Assembly: GCA_910575105.1 (NCBI GenBank)
Contig: CAJTDK010000028.1
Span: 1-38,539, forward strand
DNA from: Lachnospiraceae bacterium
Lineage (GTDB): Bacteria; Bacillota; Clostridia; Lachnospirales; Lachnospiraceae
Direction of reading: 5' to 3'
Length of the DNA: 38,539 bases
Made by a program: the position numbers and the translations under genes. The notes under the pieces are model-generated. The model did no database searches. It saw only the letters and a list, made by a program, of their open reading frames with translations, and had not been told where the DNA came from. Of the stretch, positions 25,493 to 33,811 are shown piece after piece (the stretch's first letter is position 1; the number at the start of each line of letters is the position of its first letter).

Positions 25493-25541
25493 AAGGCTCT
25501 GAATATGGTAAAATAAAGGTGCTGTATCAGAGCCTTTCTTT
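25493..25541 (+). terminator. Terminator/hairpin between xis and int
   Basis: Perfect 10-bp stem AAGGCTCTGA (25493-25502) with TCAGAGCCTT (25527-25536), then a short T-rich tail. The loop contains TGGTAAAAT, an extended -10, so a second promoter for int may lie within it. Confidence 0.65.
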
Positions 25542-25581
25542 AGTGAACCTAAAATCAGGTATTGGAAAGGAGTTCGGTATT

Positions 25582-26765
25582 TTGAGTGCAAAGAGAAGGG
25601 ACAGCCGGGGAAGAGTGTTGCGGAACGGGGAAATCCAAACCCCGGATGGCAGATACCGTTATAAATATATAGATGCTTTTGGCGACATAAGGTATGTATA
25701 TTCATGGCGGCTAGATAAAAATGACAGGATTCCTGCAGGAAAAAAGATGGAGGCGTCTCTGCGTGAAAAGGAAAAACAGATAGCGGCAGATATCTTTGAT
25801 AAGATCATACCAGAGGGCGGGGGTCTGACGGTTACAGAACTGGTAGAAAAATATATTTCGTTAAAGACGGGGGTACGTCCAACTACCGAGGCTAGCTATA
25901 GGACGGTTGTAAATATTTTGAAAAAAGAACGGTTCGGAAGGGAAAGAATTGATAAAGTAAAAATCTCGGATGCAAAAGCATGGCTGATCCAGCTTCAGAA
26001 AAATGGAAGAGGATTCAGTACGATCCGAACGATTAGGGGATCTTAAAGCCTGCCTTTCAGATGGCAGTAGATGATGATCTGATCCGCAAGAATCCTTTTG
26101 GTTTTGAGCTGGCTACAGTTATTTATAATGACAGCGTTACCAGAGAAGCCCTTACCAGAGAACAGGAGCGCAAATTTCTAAAATTTGTGGAGGAAGATTC
26201 CCATTTCAAGAAGTATTATGAAGGAGTTTATATTCTTTTTAATATAGGACTCCGCATTTCTGAATTTGAAGGTCTTACGAAATCAGATATTGATTTTAAA
26301 AATATGAAGATCAATGTAGACCACCAACTGCAGCGCTATGCAAAGATAGGATATCAGATTATTGAGCCGAAGACAGAAAGCGGTACGCGCCAGATTCCTA
26401 TGACAAAGGAAGTGGCAGAATGTTTCCGGAAGATCATTAAATCCAGAAAGAGTCCGAAAGCAGAACCAATCATTGACGGGTATGTGGGCTTTCTATATCT
26501 GGATAAAAACGGAATGCCTATGGTCGCATTACACTGGGAGAAGTATTTTCAGCATATCTACACAAAGTATAATAAGATTTACAGGGTACAGATGCCCCGG
26601 GTAACGCCTCACGTATGCCGCCATACGTTCTGCAGCAAGATGGCCGCAGCGCGGATGAATCCAAAAACCCTTCAATATATTATGGGGCATAGTGATATCA
26701 GTGTGACTATGAATGCATATACACATTTTGGATTTGAGGAGGCAAGTGACGAGGATTTCCGGTAA
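25582..26765 (+). pseudogene. int: Tn916-family tyrosine integrase (single frameshift)
   Basis: The gene starts at TTG 25582 (AAAGGAG upstream), giving SAKRRDSRGRVLRNGEIQTP as in Tn916 Int. The arm-binding domain (YRYKYIDAFGDIRYVYSWRL) is followed by a SAM-like domain. At 26041-26046 the frame hits TAA; adding one T restores RGSLKPAFQMAVDDDLIRKN, as expected. The second frame (to 26765) holds the intact catalytic domain: GLRISEFEGL, HVCRHTFCSKM, MGHSDISVTMNAYTHFGF, so R-H-R-H-Y are all present. Restored length is ~394 residues, close to the 405 of Tn916. As sequenced it would be inactive; a sequencing error is a real alternative. Confidence 0.8.
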
Positions 26766-27573: not shown

Positions 27574-27632
27574 AGAGATAGAAAAGTATGAATTGAAACG
27601 GAAGAACCATACTAACAAAGGAGGTGTTTATT

Positions 27633-27842
27633 ATGGCAACTTCAAGTATCACAAAGAATTTTGTCATTTCCGGCAAGGAACAGGTGGAGATGTTCATCAA
27701 TGCGATTGAAGAATCTGCCAAAAACCGTCCTGTGCGTACTCCGGTAAATGTAGAGTTCATTGAAACTGAGGATGAACTGCGAGAATTTATGAGGTTCAGG
27801 GAAAAGAAAGCAAAGGAGAAATTAAATGCCAGTAACGGATAA
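27633..27842 (+). CDS. Putative antitoxin of a GNAT toxin-antitoxin pair
   Basis: 69 residues behind a strong AAAGGAGG site. The sequence starts MATSSITKNFVISGKEQVEM, continues FINAIEESAKNRP, and ends in a charged helix (LREFMRFREKKAKEK). It lacks the ribbon-helix-helix signature of DUF1778 antitoxins found with TacT/AtaT toxins, so it belongs to another small family. Its frame overlaps the acetyltransferase start by 17 bases, typical of type II antitoxin-toxin operons. I infer that it binds the toxin and its own promoter. Confidence 0.65.
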   Translation: MATSSITKNFVISGKEQVEMFINAIEESAKNRPVRTPVNVEFIETEDELREFMRFREKKAKEKLNASNG

Positions 27843-28440
27843 ATTTTTTGCAATCAATATCCGCAAGTATTTGGCATTAGGAGACGACCAAGAAGCCGGG
27901 GAGCCTGCGCTTGTTAAGCTGCTCTCCGGGTTTTCCTGTCCAAAGAATCCGGATTTGGAACGGTTTTTGAAAAAAAGTGCAATAGAGTTCACAAAAAAGA
28001 ACCAGTCAGTTACATATCTTGTTTTTTCCAAAGATAATGGGGAAATGCTTGGTTATTTTACCCTTGCATTAAAACCTTTAACAGTAAGGGGAGAAACAGT
28101 AAGCAATACTGTAAAGAAAAAGTTGTTGCGCATCAGTGAATGGGATGAAAAATCAGATACTTATACTATGTCTGCATATCTGATTGCACAGCTTGGAAAA
28201 AATTACGCGGGCGGCAGGGATAAGGAAATCTCTGGAAAGGCGCTTATTGAACTGGCTTGGATGATGATTGAAAAAGCACAGTATATGTTTGGCGGCATGG
28301 TAACATTCTTAGAAGCTGAAAATGAGGAAAGGCTGTTATCATTTTACCGTGACAACCGCTTTTCGCAGTTCGATACCAGGCAGACCGCATCAGATACGGA
28401 CGAGGCGCATGAGCTGGTACAGCTTTTAAGGCTACTCTAA
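27826..28440 (+). CDS. GNAT-family acetyltransferase, probable toxin
   Basis: 204 residues, starting at ATG 27826 with GGAG seven bases upstream, inside the antitoxin gene. The GNAT core is visible: strands VTYLVFSKDNGEMLGYFTLA, then LIAQLGKNYAGGRDKEISGK (pyrophosphate-loop region), and the C-terminal strand/helix GGMVTFLEAENEERLLSFYR with DNRFSQF. GNAT toxins of type II systems acetylate aminoacyl-tRNAs and stop translation. The small overlapping upstream gene supports that role, but a different substrate is possible. Its length is slightly above the usual 160-180 residues. Confidence 0.7.
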   Translation: MPVTDKFFAINIRKYLALGDDQEAGEPALVKLLSGFSCPKNPDLERFLKKSAIEFTKKNQSVTYLVFSKDNGEMLGYFTLALKPLTVRGETVSNTVKKKLLRISEWDEKSDTYTMSAYLIAQLGKNYAGGRDKEISGKALIELAWMMIEKAQYMFGGMVTFLEAENEERLLSFYRDNRFSQFDTRQTASDTDEAHELVQLLRLL

Positions 28441-28545: not shown

Positions 28546-28604
28546 TCATCAGAATCTAACAGCGGCACAGGCGGCAATAAAAAAATAATGCCATAGGAAT
28601 TTGG

Positions 28605-28957
28605 GTATTCGCAGGCAAAAGTATTGAAGAATGGCTTAAAATCAAGGGTTTTAAGGCTTGGTGGGGTTCACTGGAATGGTTGGTGAACCCCATTTTTTTG
28701 TGTTTTTAGATGCCGCTGATAGGATGGCGATAGGGGAAAAAATCGTACTATCAGGCAAAAGTATACTTTCACGCAAAAGTCCGGGGTTTCCGTGATAGTA
28801 TAAAACGGAAGGGTAAAAAGGTGTAGGATATTGGCGGTTTTAGCTGAAAGATGTATTAGTTTGGCTAAAAATGTTGTTGAAAAACGGGGGATATGATACA
28901 AACACGGAAACAGCATGGAGCTTTCGTGATAGTATGGAGTTTTGCGTGTTTGTTTGC
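28605..28957. repeat. Left group of ~20-bp iteron-like repeats
   Basis: Copies of a motif close to ATACTATCACGGAAAACT occur at 28605-28620, 28745-28762 and 28763-28780, inverted at 28787-28801, direct at 28895-28911, and inverted at 28921-28936 and 28938-28957. The same motif is arrayed at 33129-33316, beyond the three-gene cassette. Between these copies I see no gene. The pattern resembles Rep-binding iterons of plasmid-type origins. Confidence 0.65.
28662..28699 (+). terminator. Rho-independent terminator after the GNAT gene
   Basis: Perfect 10-bp stem TGGGGTTCAC (28662-28671) and GTGAACCCCA (28683-28692), 11-base loop, then seven Ts. It isolates the downstream cassette from upstream transcription. 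Confidence 0.9.
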
Positions 28958-28996
28958 AAAATTTGTGTTTTTTGGATAGTAAATGAAATGAGGATA

Positions 28997-29005
28997 TGGT
29001 AAAAT
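28997..29005 (+). promoter_or_regulatory. Extended -10 promoter of the three-gene cassette
   Basis: TG at 28997-28998, one base, TAAAAT at 29000-29005, about 30 bases before the first ATG. No good -35 is apparent, as is common for extended -10 promoters. Confidence 0.5.
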
Positions 29006-29035
29006 ATTAGCAATATAGAGTCAGGGAGAGATACC

Positions 29036-31051
29036 ATGAAAAATATATTGATTACACCTGAAGGAATAAAGAAAAATTTGAAAAATGTAAAACCATTAGA
29101 TGCAATATGTGAATACATATGGAATGGGTTTGATGCGGGCGCGTCTCATGTGAGAGTATATTTGCATACTAATGAAATGGGTTTGATAAATATGGTATCT
29201 ATTATAGATGATGGTACAGGTATTGTATATGATGAATTACCACATAAGTTTCAACCTTTTAATGAATCTAAAAAGGCTGATTTACCTAGCAGACTAAATC
29301 ATTCATTGCCACATGGGCGTAAAGGTATAGGACGTTTGACGTTTTTCTCTTTTGCTCAAATAGCAAGATGGGACACTGTTTACGAGAAAAACGAAAAGAA
29401 ATATAAATATTATATTGGAATGAATAAAGATTCTCTTAATGAATATGACGATAACGGTGGGTTAAAACCAACTGAAACAAAAGATTCAGTTGGAACTAAA
29501 GTTACATTTACACAATTAATTGCATTATCTAAAGAAGAAATAATTGAAGAGATAAGGAATGAATTTTTTTGGTTTTTAGAATTAAATGAAAGTAATAAGT
29601 ATGAGATATCCGTAGATGATCAGCTGATTTCTTATGAGGATATTGTGATAAATAGAACAGAGTTAGATTTAGTTCAACTTAAACTAAATCATGAATATGA
29701 AGTAAAGTTCGTGCAATGGAGTAAAAGTTTGGGGAAGGAGTATTCAAAATTTTACTTTATTGGATCAGATAATAAGGAGTGTTATAAAGAGGCGACTAAG
29801 TTAAATAAGAAGTCGGATGAATTTTTTCACAGTATATTTATTAAGAGTTCCTATTTTGATGAATTTAATTTTGATAATACTCAGATTGAGGGGCAAATAG
29901 GTTTATTCCCTAATAAAAATGAATCAGAGTTTAAGATTTTGATTGATGCTATTAATCGCTATTTAATAAAGTTTAGAAAAGAGTATTTGAAAGAGGCATC
30001 TGATAAATATATAGATGCGTTAATTAAAAAAGAAGTGTATCCAAATTTTAATATGAGTAATTTTATTGACATATATAGAAAAAGAGAACTTGATAATCTA
30101 GTTGAAACACTATATACAGCACAACCTAAAATATTTACAGGACTAAACGATGACAACAAAAAAATAATGATTCATTTATTACAACTCATTATGGATAATA
30201 GTAATAAACCAGAACTTTTTGAAGTGCTGCAACAAATAATAGACCTTGATGAGGATGAAATAAAAGAATTGGCGGATGTATTAAGATATACTACATTAAA
30301 CAATATTACAAAAGTTATTAAATTATTGCAGGACCGTTTAAGAGTAGTTCAAGGATTAAAAGAAATTGTACTTGATGATAAGAAATTCGCAAAAGAGGTA
30401 GAACATTTACAAGAAGTTATAGAAAGACATTACTGGCTATTTGGAGAGCAATATAGCTTGATAACTGCCGCAGAGCCAGATTTTGAATTGGCATTAAAGG
30501 GGCTTTTAATAGCAACGAAAGGTGACGATTCTAAAGTTACTCTCGATCATGAAGATAAAAATAAAGAGATGGATATTTATATGATAAGGCAAGATCGGAA
30601 GGGTAATGTCACTGAAAATGTTGTAGTAGAATTAAAACGACCTGTTATTCCTTTGGGAGAAGAACAACTTTCTCAGGTTAAGAAGTATATGCGTGTTATT
30701 AAGTCTGATGACAGGTTTAATGCAAGTAATGTCAAATGGACCTATTTTTTGATAGGTAACAGATTTAATAAAAACGGGTTTATTCAAGATGAGTTAGAAA
30801 GTCATAGAAATCTCGGAGAGCCACATTTGGTTCATGTAGATGGGAACGGAAATAACAAAATCTATGTTTTGACATGGAGCGATATTTTCGATGAGTTTTC
30901 CAAAAGACATGATTATTTAATGAGTAAATTGGAAATAGAAAAAGAAATTTGGTTAAAGAAACATGATTCAGTTGAAGAGGTAGTGGAAGATATAAAAGAA
31001 AATTCAGCTACATTGAAGGGCGCAGTTATTCCGAAACGCGCATCGAACTAA
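29036..31051 (+). CDS. GHKL ATPase fused to a Shedu-like PD-(D/E)XK nuclease (candidate defence protein)
   Basis: 671 residues. The N-terminal GHKL (Hsp90-like) ATPase has the N-box ICEYIWNGFDAGAS (E26, N30, D33), the G1 box IIDDGTGI (58-63), and the glycine-rich lid HGRKGIGRL (93-101). A helical middle (~300-455) follows. The C-terminus resembles DUF4263/Shedu nucleases: IERHYWLFGEQYSLITAAEP, Asp513 in MDIYM, and VVVELKRP (Glu532, Lys534) with EEQLSQVKKY. This is a PD-(D/E)XK arrangement. ATP-dependent DNA or RNA cleavage on infection is the likely role. The gene is very AT-rich, unlike the surface locus, and starts a tight operon with the DUF262 and HEPN genes (11- and 13-bp gaps). Confidence 0.8.
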   Translation: MKNILITPEGIKKNLKNVKPLDAICEYIWNGFDAGASHVRVYLHTNEMGLINMVSIIDDGTGIVYDELPHKFQPFNESKKADLPSRLNHSLPHGRKGIGRLTFFSFAQIARWDTVYEKNEKKYKYYIGMNKDSLNEYDDNGGLKPTETKDSVGTKVTFTQLIALSKEEIIEEIRNEFFWFLELNESNKYEISVDDQLISYEDIVINRTELDLVQLKLNHEYEVKFVQWSKSLGKEYSKFYFIGSDNKECYKEATKLNKKSDEFFHSIFIKSSYFDEFNFDNTQIEGQIGLFPNKNESEFKILIDAINRYLIKFRKEYLKEASDKYIDALIKKEVYPNFNMSNFIDIYRKRELDNLVETLYTAQPKIFTGLNDDNKKIMIHLLQLIMDNSNKPELFEVLQQIIDLDEDEIKELADVLRYTTLNNITKVIKLLQDRLRVVQGLKEIVLDDKKFAKEVEHLQEVIERHYWLFGEQYSLITAAEPDFELALKGLLIATKGDDSKVTLDHEDKNKEMDIYMIRQDRKGNVTENVVVELKRPVIPLGEEQLSQVKKYMRVIKSDDRFNASNVKWTYFLIGNRFNKNGFIQDELESHRNLGEPHLVHVDGNGNNKIYVLTWSDIFDEFSKRHDYLMSKLEIEKEIWLKKHDSVEEVVEDIKENSATLKGAVIPKRASN

Positions 31052-31062
31052 AGGAGAAAATT

Positions 31063-32304
31063 ATGGAAAATATGGATATTATTTTTGACTTAAATGGAGA
31101 AGAAAATGAGGAAGAATTAAAGGTAGATTTAGGGAAATTTAATCAAGCTGTTATTTGGGGGACGGATTGGACTACAGAAACAATTGCAAGACAATTGGAG
31201 AAAGGGAATATTGATTTAAATCCTTCATTTCAAAGAAGGGATGCTTGGAGTGAACAGGAGAAAAGCAAATTAATAGAATCGTTAATGTTAGGCTTTCCAG
31301 TTCCGCCCATTATTTTAGCAGAGAATAAGCAAAAAAAGAATTCATATATTGTTATAGATGGAAAACAAAGATTATTAAGTATTCGTAGATTCTATTCAGA
31401 TATTTCCGAAAAGGAATTTAAAGAAAAAAGTTTACAAGAGAAAGATGTATTTAAGCAGCTTAAATTGAAGGGGTTAGATATATTAGAGGATTTCAACGGA
31501 AAAACGTATAGTCAATTAGAAGTAGAGAGTACAGATTATATTAATAATTTAGATAATCAATCAATACGAACAATAGTCATAAAAAACTGGCCGGATGAAG
31601 CGTTTCTTTATACTGTTTTTTTGAGGTTAAATACTGGTAGTAAAAAATTATCTCCTCAGGAATTAAGGCAAGCATTAAAACCTGGTCCATTCTTGGATTT
31701 TTTAGATGATGAAACGGCCAATAGTGAAGTAATAAAAAATATGTTAAATAACAAAAGTGCTGATCCACGCATGAAAGATATAGAATTGGCTTTAAGATAT
31801 TTCGCATTTAAATGTTTTGCGGATAAATATGAAGGAAACTTAAAAGAATTTCTTGATTATACATGTGAAAATTTAAATAAAAGTTGGGAGAAAAATGAAA
31901 AGGTACTTCGAGAATTGTTTAAGGAATTGGAAAATGCAATTCTTTATTTAACTGATTTGTTTACACCCAATTCTGCATTTAGTAGGTATACAAAGGGAAA
32001 ATGTAACGGGAGATTTAATCGTTCGATATATGAGGTTTTGACGTATTATTTTTCAATAAAGGAAATAAGATTTGCTATAGATAAAAAGAAGAAAGAATTT
32101 GTAGAAGAATTTGTAAAAATGAATGATAATAATGAGTTTATACATGCTGTAAGTGATACTACAAAGGATATTAATCGAATTGCTTTGCGATTTACAAAGG
32201 TATCGGATATTTTAGAATTGCTAATTAATGTTGATGAAAACCATGTGAAAATTCCTAAATTGAAACTTAATGAAGGCAAGATAGAAGTTATGAGCGAAAT
32301 GTAG
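31063..32304 (+). CDS. DUF262 protein (GmrSD/ParB-Srx-like N-domain, no HNH)
   Basis: 413 residues. The DUF262 signature is present: LNPSFQRRDAWSEQEKSKLI (QRR 57-59), LGFPVPPIILAE, and VIDGKQRLLSI (99-103, DGKQR for the usual DGQQR), then FLRLNTGSKKLSPQELR. DUF262 domains of GmrS-type proteins use NTP hydrolysis and act in DNA modification-dependent restriction. The C-terminal half is helical and lacks the DUF1524 HNH nuclease normally fused in GmrSD, so nuclease activity probably comes from its operon partners. Ribosome site AGGAG lies six bases upstream. Composition is AT-rich like its neighbours. Confidence 0.85.
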   Translation: MENMDIIFDLNGEENEEELKVDLGKFNQAVIWGTDWTTETIARQLEKGNIDLNPSFQRRDAWSEQEKSKLIESLMLGFPVPPIILAENKQKKNSYIVIDGKQRLLSIRRFYSDISEKEFKEKSLQEKDVFKQLKLKGLDILEDFNGKTYSQLEVESTDYINNLDNQSIRTIVIKNWPDEAFLYTVFLRLNTGSKKLSPQELRQALKPGPFLDFLDDETANSEVIKNMLNNKSADPRMKDIELALRYFAFKCFADKYEGNLKEFLDYTCENLNKSWEKNEKVLRELFKELENAILYLTDLFTPNSAFSRYTKGKCNGRFNRSIYEVLTYYFSIKEIRFAIDKKKKEFVEEFVKMNDNNEFIHAVSDTTKDINRIALRFTKVSDILELLINVDENHVKIPKLKLNEGKIEVMSEM

Positions 32305-32317
32305 TAGAGGTGCCTTT

Positions 32318-32899
32318 ATGAGTGAACAAAAGAGATCTAAAGAATATAAGCATTTAGAAAAAAGAATTTCACAAATTGAGAAAAATTTCAAGTTCAATCA
32401 ATCTATAAATGGTATTACTAATTTGCAAGCAGATAGACTGAGAGGTTTGAGGCTTTTATGTCATGCTGAATTAGAAGATTATTTTGAAAGTGTCGCATTA
32501 AAGTTGTTAACTAAAGCAGAAAAAAGGTGGGTAGAGAAAAAGATTGCAAATTATAATCTATCGTCACTTTTTATTTGGCATGATAAAATAGACAAGAATG
32601 ACACAAATGATACGAAAGCAAGGATGATTATTGCAGATTATAGAAAAGAAATTAAATCCAATCATGGAATAAAAGAGGATAATATAAAAAAATTATTTGG
32701 TCCTTTAGGGTATAGAACAGATGATTTTGATTCAACATTTATATCTACATTATCGTCTTTTGGTGCTTTGAGAGGAGAAACAGCACATATGTCTGCAAAT
32801 AAAACTCAACAGCCATTAGATCAAAATACGGAATTAAAAAGAATTAAAGATTTGTTAAAGGGAATTGCAGATTTTGAGGATGTATTAAATTCCAAATAA
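32318..32899 (+). CDS. HEPN-domain RNase-like protein
   Basis: 193 residues, all helical. The two HEPN features are visible: an N-terminal helix with LRGLRLLCHAELEDYFESVA and the catalytic motif ALRGETAHMS, where Arg152-x4-His157 fits the HEPN Rx4-6H RNase active site. The pattern resembles MAE_28990/RiboL-PSP-HEPN families, which often pair with DUF262 proteins in defence loci. It would be the effector that cleaves RNA and arrests the cell. It is the last gene of the cassette. Not a Cas protein: no CRISPR or cas genes are near. Confidence 0.75.
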   Translation: MSEQKRSKEYKHLEKRISQIEKNFKFNQSINGITNLQADRLRGLRLLCHAELEDYFESVALKLLTKAEKRWVEKKIANYNLSSLFIWHDKIDKNDTNDTKARMIIADYRKEIKSNHGIKEDNIKKLFGPLGYRTDDFDSTFISTLSSFGALRGETAHMSANKTQQPLDQNTELKRIKDLLKGIADFEDVLNSK

Positions 32900-33128
32900 T
32901 GTTTGATTGAATAGAAGTTTTTAATAAAATCATAGGAGCAATAATCTTAGCATCCAACGGTGTCTCCTTCCCCGGCAGATACGGACACGGAAAGCCGGGA
33001 AAGCCCGTAAACACGGCACTTTTGGCACTACATAGATTTCAGAGTCACATTATTTTCGTGTGCTTTTAGGGGCATTTTTACATTAGCGAGGGTACGAACT
33101 TCTGTTCTGGGGTTGTTTTGCCTGATAG
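32900..33128. other. Gene-free stretch after the defence cassette
   Basis: I see no intact gene. A short frame near 32950 (SNGVSFPGRYGHGKPGKP) looks like a broken fragment but I do not recognise it. Composition returns to average GC here, so the AT-rich import seems to end near 32940. Confidence 0.5.
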
Positions 33129-33316
33129 TGTATACTCGTAGACAAAAGTCGGTTATTATCACGGAAACTCGGATACTAACAGGCAAAACTAGATACTATC
33201 ACGCAAAAGTCGATACTCGCAGGCAAAACCCATATACAAACACGGAAACTGCCTGTATTATCACGGAAACAGGATGGGAGTTTTCGTGATAGTATAAGGG
33301 TTTCCGTGTTTGCATA
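33129..33316. repeat. Right iteron-like array
   Basis: Seven direct copies start at about 33132, 33153, 33173, 33193, 33213, 33234 and 33255, a period of 20-21 bp, each close to GATACTATCACGGAAAACT (core CACGGAAA or CAGGCAAAA). Two inverted copies follow at 33280-33296 and 33300-33316. The regular period places repeats on two-turn spacing, as for replication-initiator or repressor binding. No rep gene is adjacent. Confidence 0.75.
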
Positions 33317-33356
33317 CGAGTAAAACGGTAAAAACTGAATGAATAAATGATAACAA

Positions 33357-33389
33357 GAGAAAAGGGCTGTTTCGGCAGTCCTTTTTCTC
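33357..33389. terminator. Hairpin with A/T-rich arms, possible bidirectional terminator
   Basis: GAGAAAAGGGCTG (33357-33369) can pair with CAGTCCTTTTTCTC (33376-33389), one mismatch. The A and T runs inside the arms fit a terminator used from either side. The following 284 bases (33390-33673) contain no recognisable gene; an AGGAGG followed by ATG-GCG-TAA near 33585 forms only a start-stop. Confidence 0.5.

Positions 33390-33673: not shown

Positions 33674-33811
<138 letters not shown>

Follow-up and report, generated by a model that had tools for sequence, protein, structure and literature searches.

The window analysed here, a 38,539-nucleotide stretch of a Lachnospiraceae genome (GenBank contig CAJTDK010000028.1), contains three consecutive genes, designated A (coordinates 29036–31051), B (31063–32304) and C (32318–32899), all on the forward strand and all situated between the left end (LE; 28554–28960) and right end (RE; 32959–33387) of a dispersed non-coding repeat in the same orientation. 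Gene A encodes a 671-residue protein with a predicted N-terminal GHKL ATPase, a helical middle and a C-terminal PD-(D/E)XK nuclease, gene B a 413-residue DUF262 (GmrSD_N) protein of the NTPase/sensor type, and gene C a 193-residue RiboL-PSP-type HEPN protein and predicted RNase. The intergenic gaps are 11 bp (A–B) and 13 bp (B–C), an AAAGGAG sequence lies upstream of the B start, and the three genes are probably expressed as one transcript. Their GC contents (0.302, 0.292 and 0.285 for A, B and C) are well below those of the 595 bp before (0.403) and the 601 bp after (0.391) the trio, and GC in 1-kb steps is 0.38–0.58 elsewhere in the window, the trio and its edges excluded. Open reading frames (ORFs) and base composition confirm the coordinates, packing and AT-richness reported in the original prediction, which was made from the DNA sequence alone and recognised a GHKL–nuclease fusion, a DUF262 protein lacking HNH and a HEPN protein with an Rx4H motif; Pfam, conserved residues and structure models agree with these assignments, and the residues D513 and E532 (A) and R152 and H157 (C) are found where it placed them. 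By analogy with the families named below, an anti-phage defence role is likely for all three genes. We think it probable that they constitute the AT-rich cargo of the repeat and comprise two anti-phage modules, A as an ATP-gated DNA cutter and B with C as a sensor and its RNase.

Gene A matches HATPase_c_3 (Pfam, 1.6e-15) and, weakly, HSDR_N_2 over residues 501–557. HATPase_c_3 is present in 24/24 members of the A family, and across these sequences both the GHKL residues (E26, N30, D58, G60, G62, G97, G99 and R100) and the nuclease residues (D513, E532, K534 and Q547; an acidic residue followed by ExK) are invariant. The predicted structure of A matches MutL, TRAP1 and MORC, giving the ATPase a MutL/MORC/Hsp90-like fold, and the nuclease domain alone aligns structurally with EndoMS, Shedu and SduA. 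The Shedu signature domain (Pfam SduA_C, DUF4263) was not detected in A itself; it was found in one of the 24 family members (E 0.057), and the PADLOC SduA model matches three of them (best 6.4e-4). The single PADLOC-DB 2023 match to A is a type II restriction endonuclease model, over the GHKL part. With its predicted GHKL and nuclease domains, A appears to be of the paraMORC3 or Shedu type I-D (VcSduA-like) kind.

Gene B contains GmrSD_N/DUF262 (8.8e-26) with the motifs QRR at residue 57, DGKQR at 99 and FLRLN at 186, and no DUF1524 or HNH domain was found in A, B or C (Pfam, E 0.1). Its best PADLOC-DB 2023 match is NsnA (7.5e-72), followed by PD-T4-2_A (1.2e-35) and two weak models. The sole Pfam match of gene C at E 0.1 is HEPN_RiboL-PSP (PF18735; 3.3e-14, above the family cut-off), and its Rx4H motif is RGETAH (R152-GETA-H157). 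A survey of 392 genomes from the order gave 24 places with PF18735, spread over 22 of them; such a match lies directly downstream of a B-like DUF262 gene, on the same strand, at 14 of 33 B-like places (13 of them outside the window), while a DUF3696 match lies downstream at five others. Additional DUF262–HEPN pairs without A are found at loci L069, L070, L071, L072 and L153. All 14 profile-detected HEPN partners, that of the window included, have the Rx4H motif, as do all 22 HEPN-type partners examined, although a few of the latter were labelled partly by that motif and 14/14 is the clean count. In 22/22 pairs labelled HEPN-type the two genes are no more than 21 bp apart or overlap. The form RGxxAH is shared by C and its three closest homologues.

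Among the homologues of B found, the nearest, from Rhodococcus, Rhizobium and a Klebsiella phage, are each accompanied by a C homologue and lack A in their vicinity. In the Rhodococcus and Rhizobium loci the C homologue (with RGDTAH or RGGAAH) begins 3–5 bp downstream and is missing from the PLSDB gene table. In Klebsiella phage ST16-OXA48phi5.4 (Peduoviridae) a DUF262 protein 41% identical to B is followed by gp39 (PF18735 at 3e-7; RGDYAH), with the pair located between tail genes and the surroundings annotated as phage genes only. A tree of 40 DUF262 proteins (rows shorter than 250 residues and duplicates dropped, the Klebsiella phage protein left out) groups B with the Rhodococcus and Rhizobium proteins (support 100/99) and places nine ATPase-paired DUF262 proteins in one group without B (93/92); the 22 HEPN-paired rows do not form a single group (five changes). 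IMG/VR contains no relatives of B or C and one partial relative of A. No relatives of C were found on plasmids or in phages by tblastn; profile and neighbour checks nevertheless show a C homologue adjoining a B homologue on each of two plasmids and in one phage. The apparent rarity of C (one of 392 genomes) thus reflects its sequence divergence.

DNA methyltransferase genes (C5 or N6) lie beside ten DUF262–HEPN pairs, recognised by Pfam (L101, L103, L104 and L112), by annotation (L071) or by inspection of the sequence (L106, L110, L113, L114 and L139), and an annotated methyltransferase is also beside the related pair L154. This suggests restriction-like systems whose effector is an RNase. The HEPN family has a second two-gene layout, in which a RiboL-PSP-HEPN gene directly follows an AAA-type ATPase gene (L116–L121; the ATPase by inspection of the sequence). 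A second RiboL-PSP-HEPN gene is present in the window's own genome (L115, 5396–5956; G000:C15, 6895–7455), beside a gene that looks ParA-like.

A scan of 84,980 species genomes yielded 30 loci with relatives of A, and neither B nor C is beside A in any of them (phmmer, E 1e-3). Three of the loci (L012, L024 and L027) end at A or within 50 bp of it, leaving 27 that could show a downstream neighbour; whole-genome searches of these 27 gave a weak B-like match in four, none inside the A loci, and a B profile likewise has no match in the A loci. In single-sequence searches of the 392 genomes, A is present in six and B in 32, and both only in the window's own genome. The neighbours of A vary and include type I restriction HsdR, Schlafen/AlbA_2 and Abi-alpha proteins (Pfam-checked) and an OLD-like plus UvrD-like pair (by eye). 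A Schlafen/AlbA_2 protein of ~500 residues adjoins the A-family gene at L003 (10043–11548), L014 (6493–7989), L015 (1521–3014) and L026 (2967–4446, as two ORFs), Pfam-checked for L003 and L014 only. A also matches 45 plasmid records and two Pasteurella phages; DUF262 is annotated within 6 kb of A in none of the seven plasmid records inspected, whose gene tables are incomplete. No second A–B–C trio was seen in the loci examined. With iterated profiles over the loci, an A-like gene is beside a B-like gene only in the window and in G062 (L141, 6990–10249), which is one of the 31 other genomes with B. There a divergent A-like GHKL protein of 640 residues (HATPase_c_3 at 1.2e-17; no nuclease match at 1e-3) is encoded upstream of a Menshen-type set of DUF262 and ATPase genes, at a distance of 161 bp.

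The flanking repeat was discovered through 20-nt repeats before A and after C, which have 13 matches in the window at up to three mismatches, compared with 0.44 expected. The original prediction called these iterons; they are real repeats and belong to a dispersed intergenic element, and a role as replication origin is unsupported. LE contains 20-nt repeat units, a terminator-like hairpin (28660–28694) and a core (28554–28803) that is common to empty copies and copies with other cargo; RE contains phased 20-nt units at 33115–33321. Both were searched for in 12 genomes, which are not a random sample: the window's own, five congeners and six other family members with an LE match. The LE core has 20 matches in nine of them (11 copies aligned) and RE has 26 matches in seven, partial and internal-repeat matches counted (five copies aligned, one homologous over only ~117 bp). 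Among 299 genomes of the family LE occurs in eight, with at most two candidates scored per listed genome.

LE and RE lie on the same contig and strand and in the right order in seven instances in the 12 genomes, of which three are empty and four filled. The empty copies (G422:C75, G637:C53 at 31.7 kb and G637:C97) have 82–83 bp between the ends, with closely similar spacers. In the window the ends are 4,155 bp apart, and the intervening A–B–C segment has a GC content of 0.297. The other filled copies have 3,854 bp encoding a Peptidase_C14 caspase (9.8e-26), a DUF4062 protein (4.5e-29) and a 170-residue protein without a match (GC 0.32; G419:C2, L186 7170–10643, minus strand); 3,201 bp with two genes of 391 and 551 codons without Pfam or PADLOC match (GC 0.294; G645:C41, L202 4174–7122); and 2,647 bp encoding a Fic protein (Pfam 8.6e-15; PADLOC SoFic 2e-39) and a 410-residue protein of no recognised family (GC 0.36; G637:C53 at 52 kb, L200 9688–12093, minus strand), in which RE matches over the first 117 bp only. 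GC outside the filled copies is 0.40–0.51. Each cargo is flanked by the landmarks TG(C/T)TGTTGAAA on one side and GGTGTCT on the other; the Fic copy is an exception in having a second TGTTGAAA to the right of its cargo. The exact break points differ by tens of bases, and the neighbouring host genes differ by inspection. The position that A–B–C take up within the repeat is vacant in some copies and taken by other genes in others. Unpaired copies of LE or RE, as well as short forms, are mostly found between ordinary genes.

Beyond position 28554 on the left, further sequence is common to some copies only: the window, a C24 copy and two from G637 form one group, G636 and G645:C41 another, and Petralouisia muris and G645:C66 a third. 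The P. muris (Lachnospiraceae) contig is 97% identical to the window over 28554–29907 and has LE followed by A (L012, 8001–8922), where residue 293 is the last of the A frame, close to the end of the contig; the final bases could fold into a hairpin that may resemble an IS200/IS605 end. The toxin–antitoxin pair of the original prediction (27624–28440), just upstream of the trio, has the appropriate gene layout and no Pfam match at E 0.1. Look-alikes of its 204-residue gene (27826–28440) are found just left of LE at L188 (3846–4460) and L211 (3635–4246, minus strand; by eye), and this gene may be part of a larger repeated unit. The mobile DNA that the prediction described nearby is corroborated by a Tn916-type integrase, present as separate DNA-binding (25519–26046) and catalytic (26061–26765) ORFs, and a weak TrwB-like Pfam match. 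A perfect (AAGC)27 array (33697–33804) lies between RE and the next gene.

The original prediction interpreted the trio as a single three-component system in which DUF262 is the sensor, the GHKL–nuclease cuts DNA, and HEPN cleaves RNA when all else fails. The tight packing, the common base composition, the residence of all three genes in one cassette between the same repeat ends, and the G062 locus, where an A-like gene adjoins a Menshen-type DUF262, speak for this. However, A occurs without B or C in all 30 related loci (three of them cut at A), B–C-type pairs occur without A at 13 other places by profile and at the five further loci listed above, there is no second trio among the loci examined, and a GHKL-Shedu and DUF262 combination in Vibrio cholerae behaved as two systems in the tests described in passages of PMC12137116. 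Rare co-occurrence was named by the original prediction itself as grounds for refutation; in the survey the three families are mostly found separately, this part of the prediction is largely unsupported, and a single system is unlikely. The trio is probably better described as two separate modules, A alone and B with C. It is less likely still, and we regard it as improbable, that only A is a defence gene and that B–C is a selfish or regulatory toxin–antitoxin-like pair, with the DUF262 protein restraining a HEPN toxin and defence as a side effect. HEPN RNases are common toxins according to parts of PMC3710099, the genes of all 22 HEPN-type pairs are close or overlapping, and the putative toxin–antitoxin pair is just upstream of the trio; against it are the location of such a pair between phage tail genes, the frequent association with DNA methyltransferases, and the sensing of modified DNA by other anti-phage DUF262 proteins, as covered in sections of a review (PMC10952713).

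The repeat itself is open to two interpretations. We tentatively propose that Lachnospiraceae non-coding repeats lacking a transposase or integrase of their own act as carriers of, or landing sites for, exchangeable AT-rich sets of defence genes, with empty and filled copies at different positions in the genomes and the trio as one of at least four loads. Alternatively, LE and RE would belong to a widespread intergenic repeat that received unrelated genes by chance and has no role in cargo movement, a possible but rather doubtful account that is compatible with two modules. Many copies of LE or RE are cargo-free and flanked by ordinary host genes, no recombinase is seen consistently beside them, the ends of the cargo shift by tens of bases between copies, and the sequence left of LE is common to groups of copies, all of which would fit chance insertion; yet four unrelated AT-rich cargoes (GC 0.29–0.36, with outside flanks at 0.40–0.51) lie between the same two landmarks, and three other copies have closely similar 82–83 bp spacers at that site. 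Several observations weigh against our reading of the trio as a two-module cargo of the repeat. The 11-bp A–B gap and common AT-richness are also expected of one operon-encoded system, and G062 demonstrates that GHKL beside DUF262 is not unique to the window, making a functional GHKL–DUF262 link possible. Gene C, which is very divergent, has no PADLOC match at E 1, ten related HEPN proteins have none better than E 0.0063, and gp39 has none at 1e-5. A recognised defence-linked domain is present in only three of the four filled cassettes, and the grouped sharing left of LE indicates that the repeats are mosaic, leaving their outer left limit unsettled.

If the two-module reading is correct, the predicted fold and conserved residues of A, together with the analogy to VcSduA, suggest that its ATP-binding GHKL domains would dimerise as a clamp able to load onto DNA or to sense it, with ATP turnover licensing the C-terminal PD-(D/E)XK domain to cut invading DNA. 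For the second module, which is recognised by its pairing and motifs, B would be the NTP-driven sensor, responding either to a feature of DNA or to infection, and would restrain or release the HEPN RNase C, whose cleavage of RNA would stop the infected cell. Since methyltransferases are beside several related pairs, methylation state or another DNA mark would be the likeliest signal.

Adjacent AT-rich genes are easily misread as one system in defence mining, and here separate occurrence tells two modules apart. Both the GHKL–nuclease and the DUF262–HEPN pair are little studied, and the coupling of a HEPN RNase to a DNA-sensing DUF262 protein, frequently with a methyltransferase alongside, could represent a restriction-like defence that acts by cutting RNA. 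If the repeat exchanges defence cassettes, LE and RE would offer an easy sequence-based way to search for new defence genes, one that has already yielded the caspase and DUF4062 set, the Fic set and the two-gene set unrecognised by Pfam or PADLOC.

The original prediction knew of no named system for this trio, and in PADLOC-DB 2023 no models were matched jointly by A, B and C; each half, however, has a published counterpart (PMC12137116, PMC2292703, PMC3710099). The absence of DUF1524 from A, B and C at E 0.1 sets B apart from the GmrSD, BrxU and SspE type IV restriction systems. Menshen (an NsnA DUF262 protein with an OLD-type ATPase) was rejected although NsnA is the best PADLOC match of B: the NsnA model also matches eight HEPN-paired DUF262 proteins (1.8e-59 to 9.3e-80) as well as one DUF3696-paired protein (1e-122), the tree separates B, the partner of B is a HEPN protein, and the ATPase of A is of the GHKL type, with no OLD-type/DUF3696 partner (Menshen is our own label for the DUF3696/ATPase-paired sets).

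The closest parallels to B–C are PD-T4-2, whose components are DUF262 and HEPN according to sections of a 2023 review (PMC10952713), and the DUF262 (ParB-fold) and RiboL-PSP-HEPN pairs of 2013. In the portions of Anantharaman et al. 2013 (PMC3710099) that deal with these families, RiboL-PSP-HEPN is reported in an operon with ParB, and ParB with a DNA methylase is listed for another HEPN family. Like these, B–C has adjacent DUF262 and HEPN genes and an Rx4H motif, and B matches PD-T4-2_A; C matched no PADLOC model, and the likeness to PD-T4-2 is by description. By gene order and motif B–C appears to fit the DUF262–HEPN layout, with the difference that C has RGxxAH whereas most partners (19 of 22) have RN or RH.

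The locus as a whole resembles a cluster on VSP-II of WASA-lineage V. cholerae, which contains the DUF262 operon GrwAB and the GHKL-Shedu gene VcSduA; passages of PMC12137116 report that genetic dissection separates the two as independent systems that are seldom together outside V. cholerae, and that VcSduA depends on its GHKL and nuclease residues and acts apart from GrwAB. In both cases a GHKL gene is beside a two-gene DUF262 operon, the V. cholerae cluster being on a mobile island, but GrwA has a DUF1524 nuclease and its partner is a second DUF262 protein, whereas the partner in the window is HEPN. VcSduA (Shedu type I-D) and paraMORC3 share with A an N-terminal GHKL domain, a C-terminal PD-(D/E)XK domain and single-gene occurrence, with the catalytic GHKL glutamate at E26 in A and E27 in VcSduA; the Shedu signature is barely detectable in the A family, and the likeness is by description. 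The cassette also has likenesses to defence hot spots such as those at phage loci, which are single sites with interchangeable defence genes, and to REPIN-type elements, which are short non-coding repeats without a transposase of their own. The window differs from both in having its cargo inside a dispersed 0.75-kb repeat that is found at varying chromosomal positions. The two proposed modules are of known kinds, and the probable swappable cassette is the new part.

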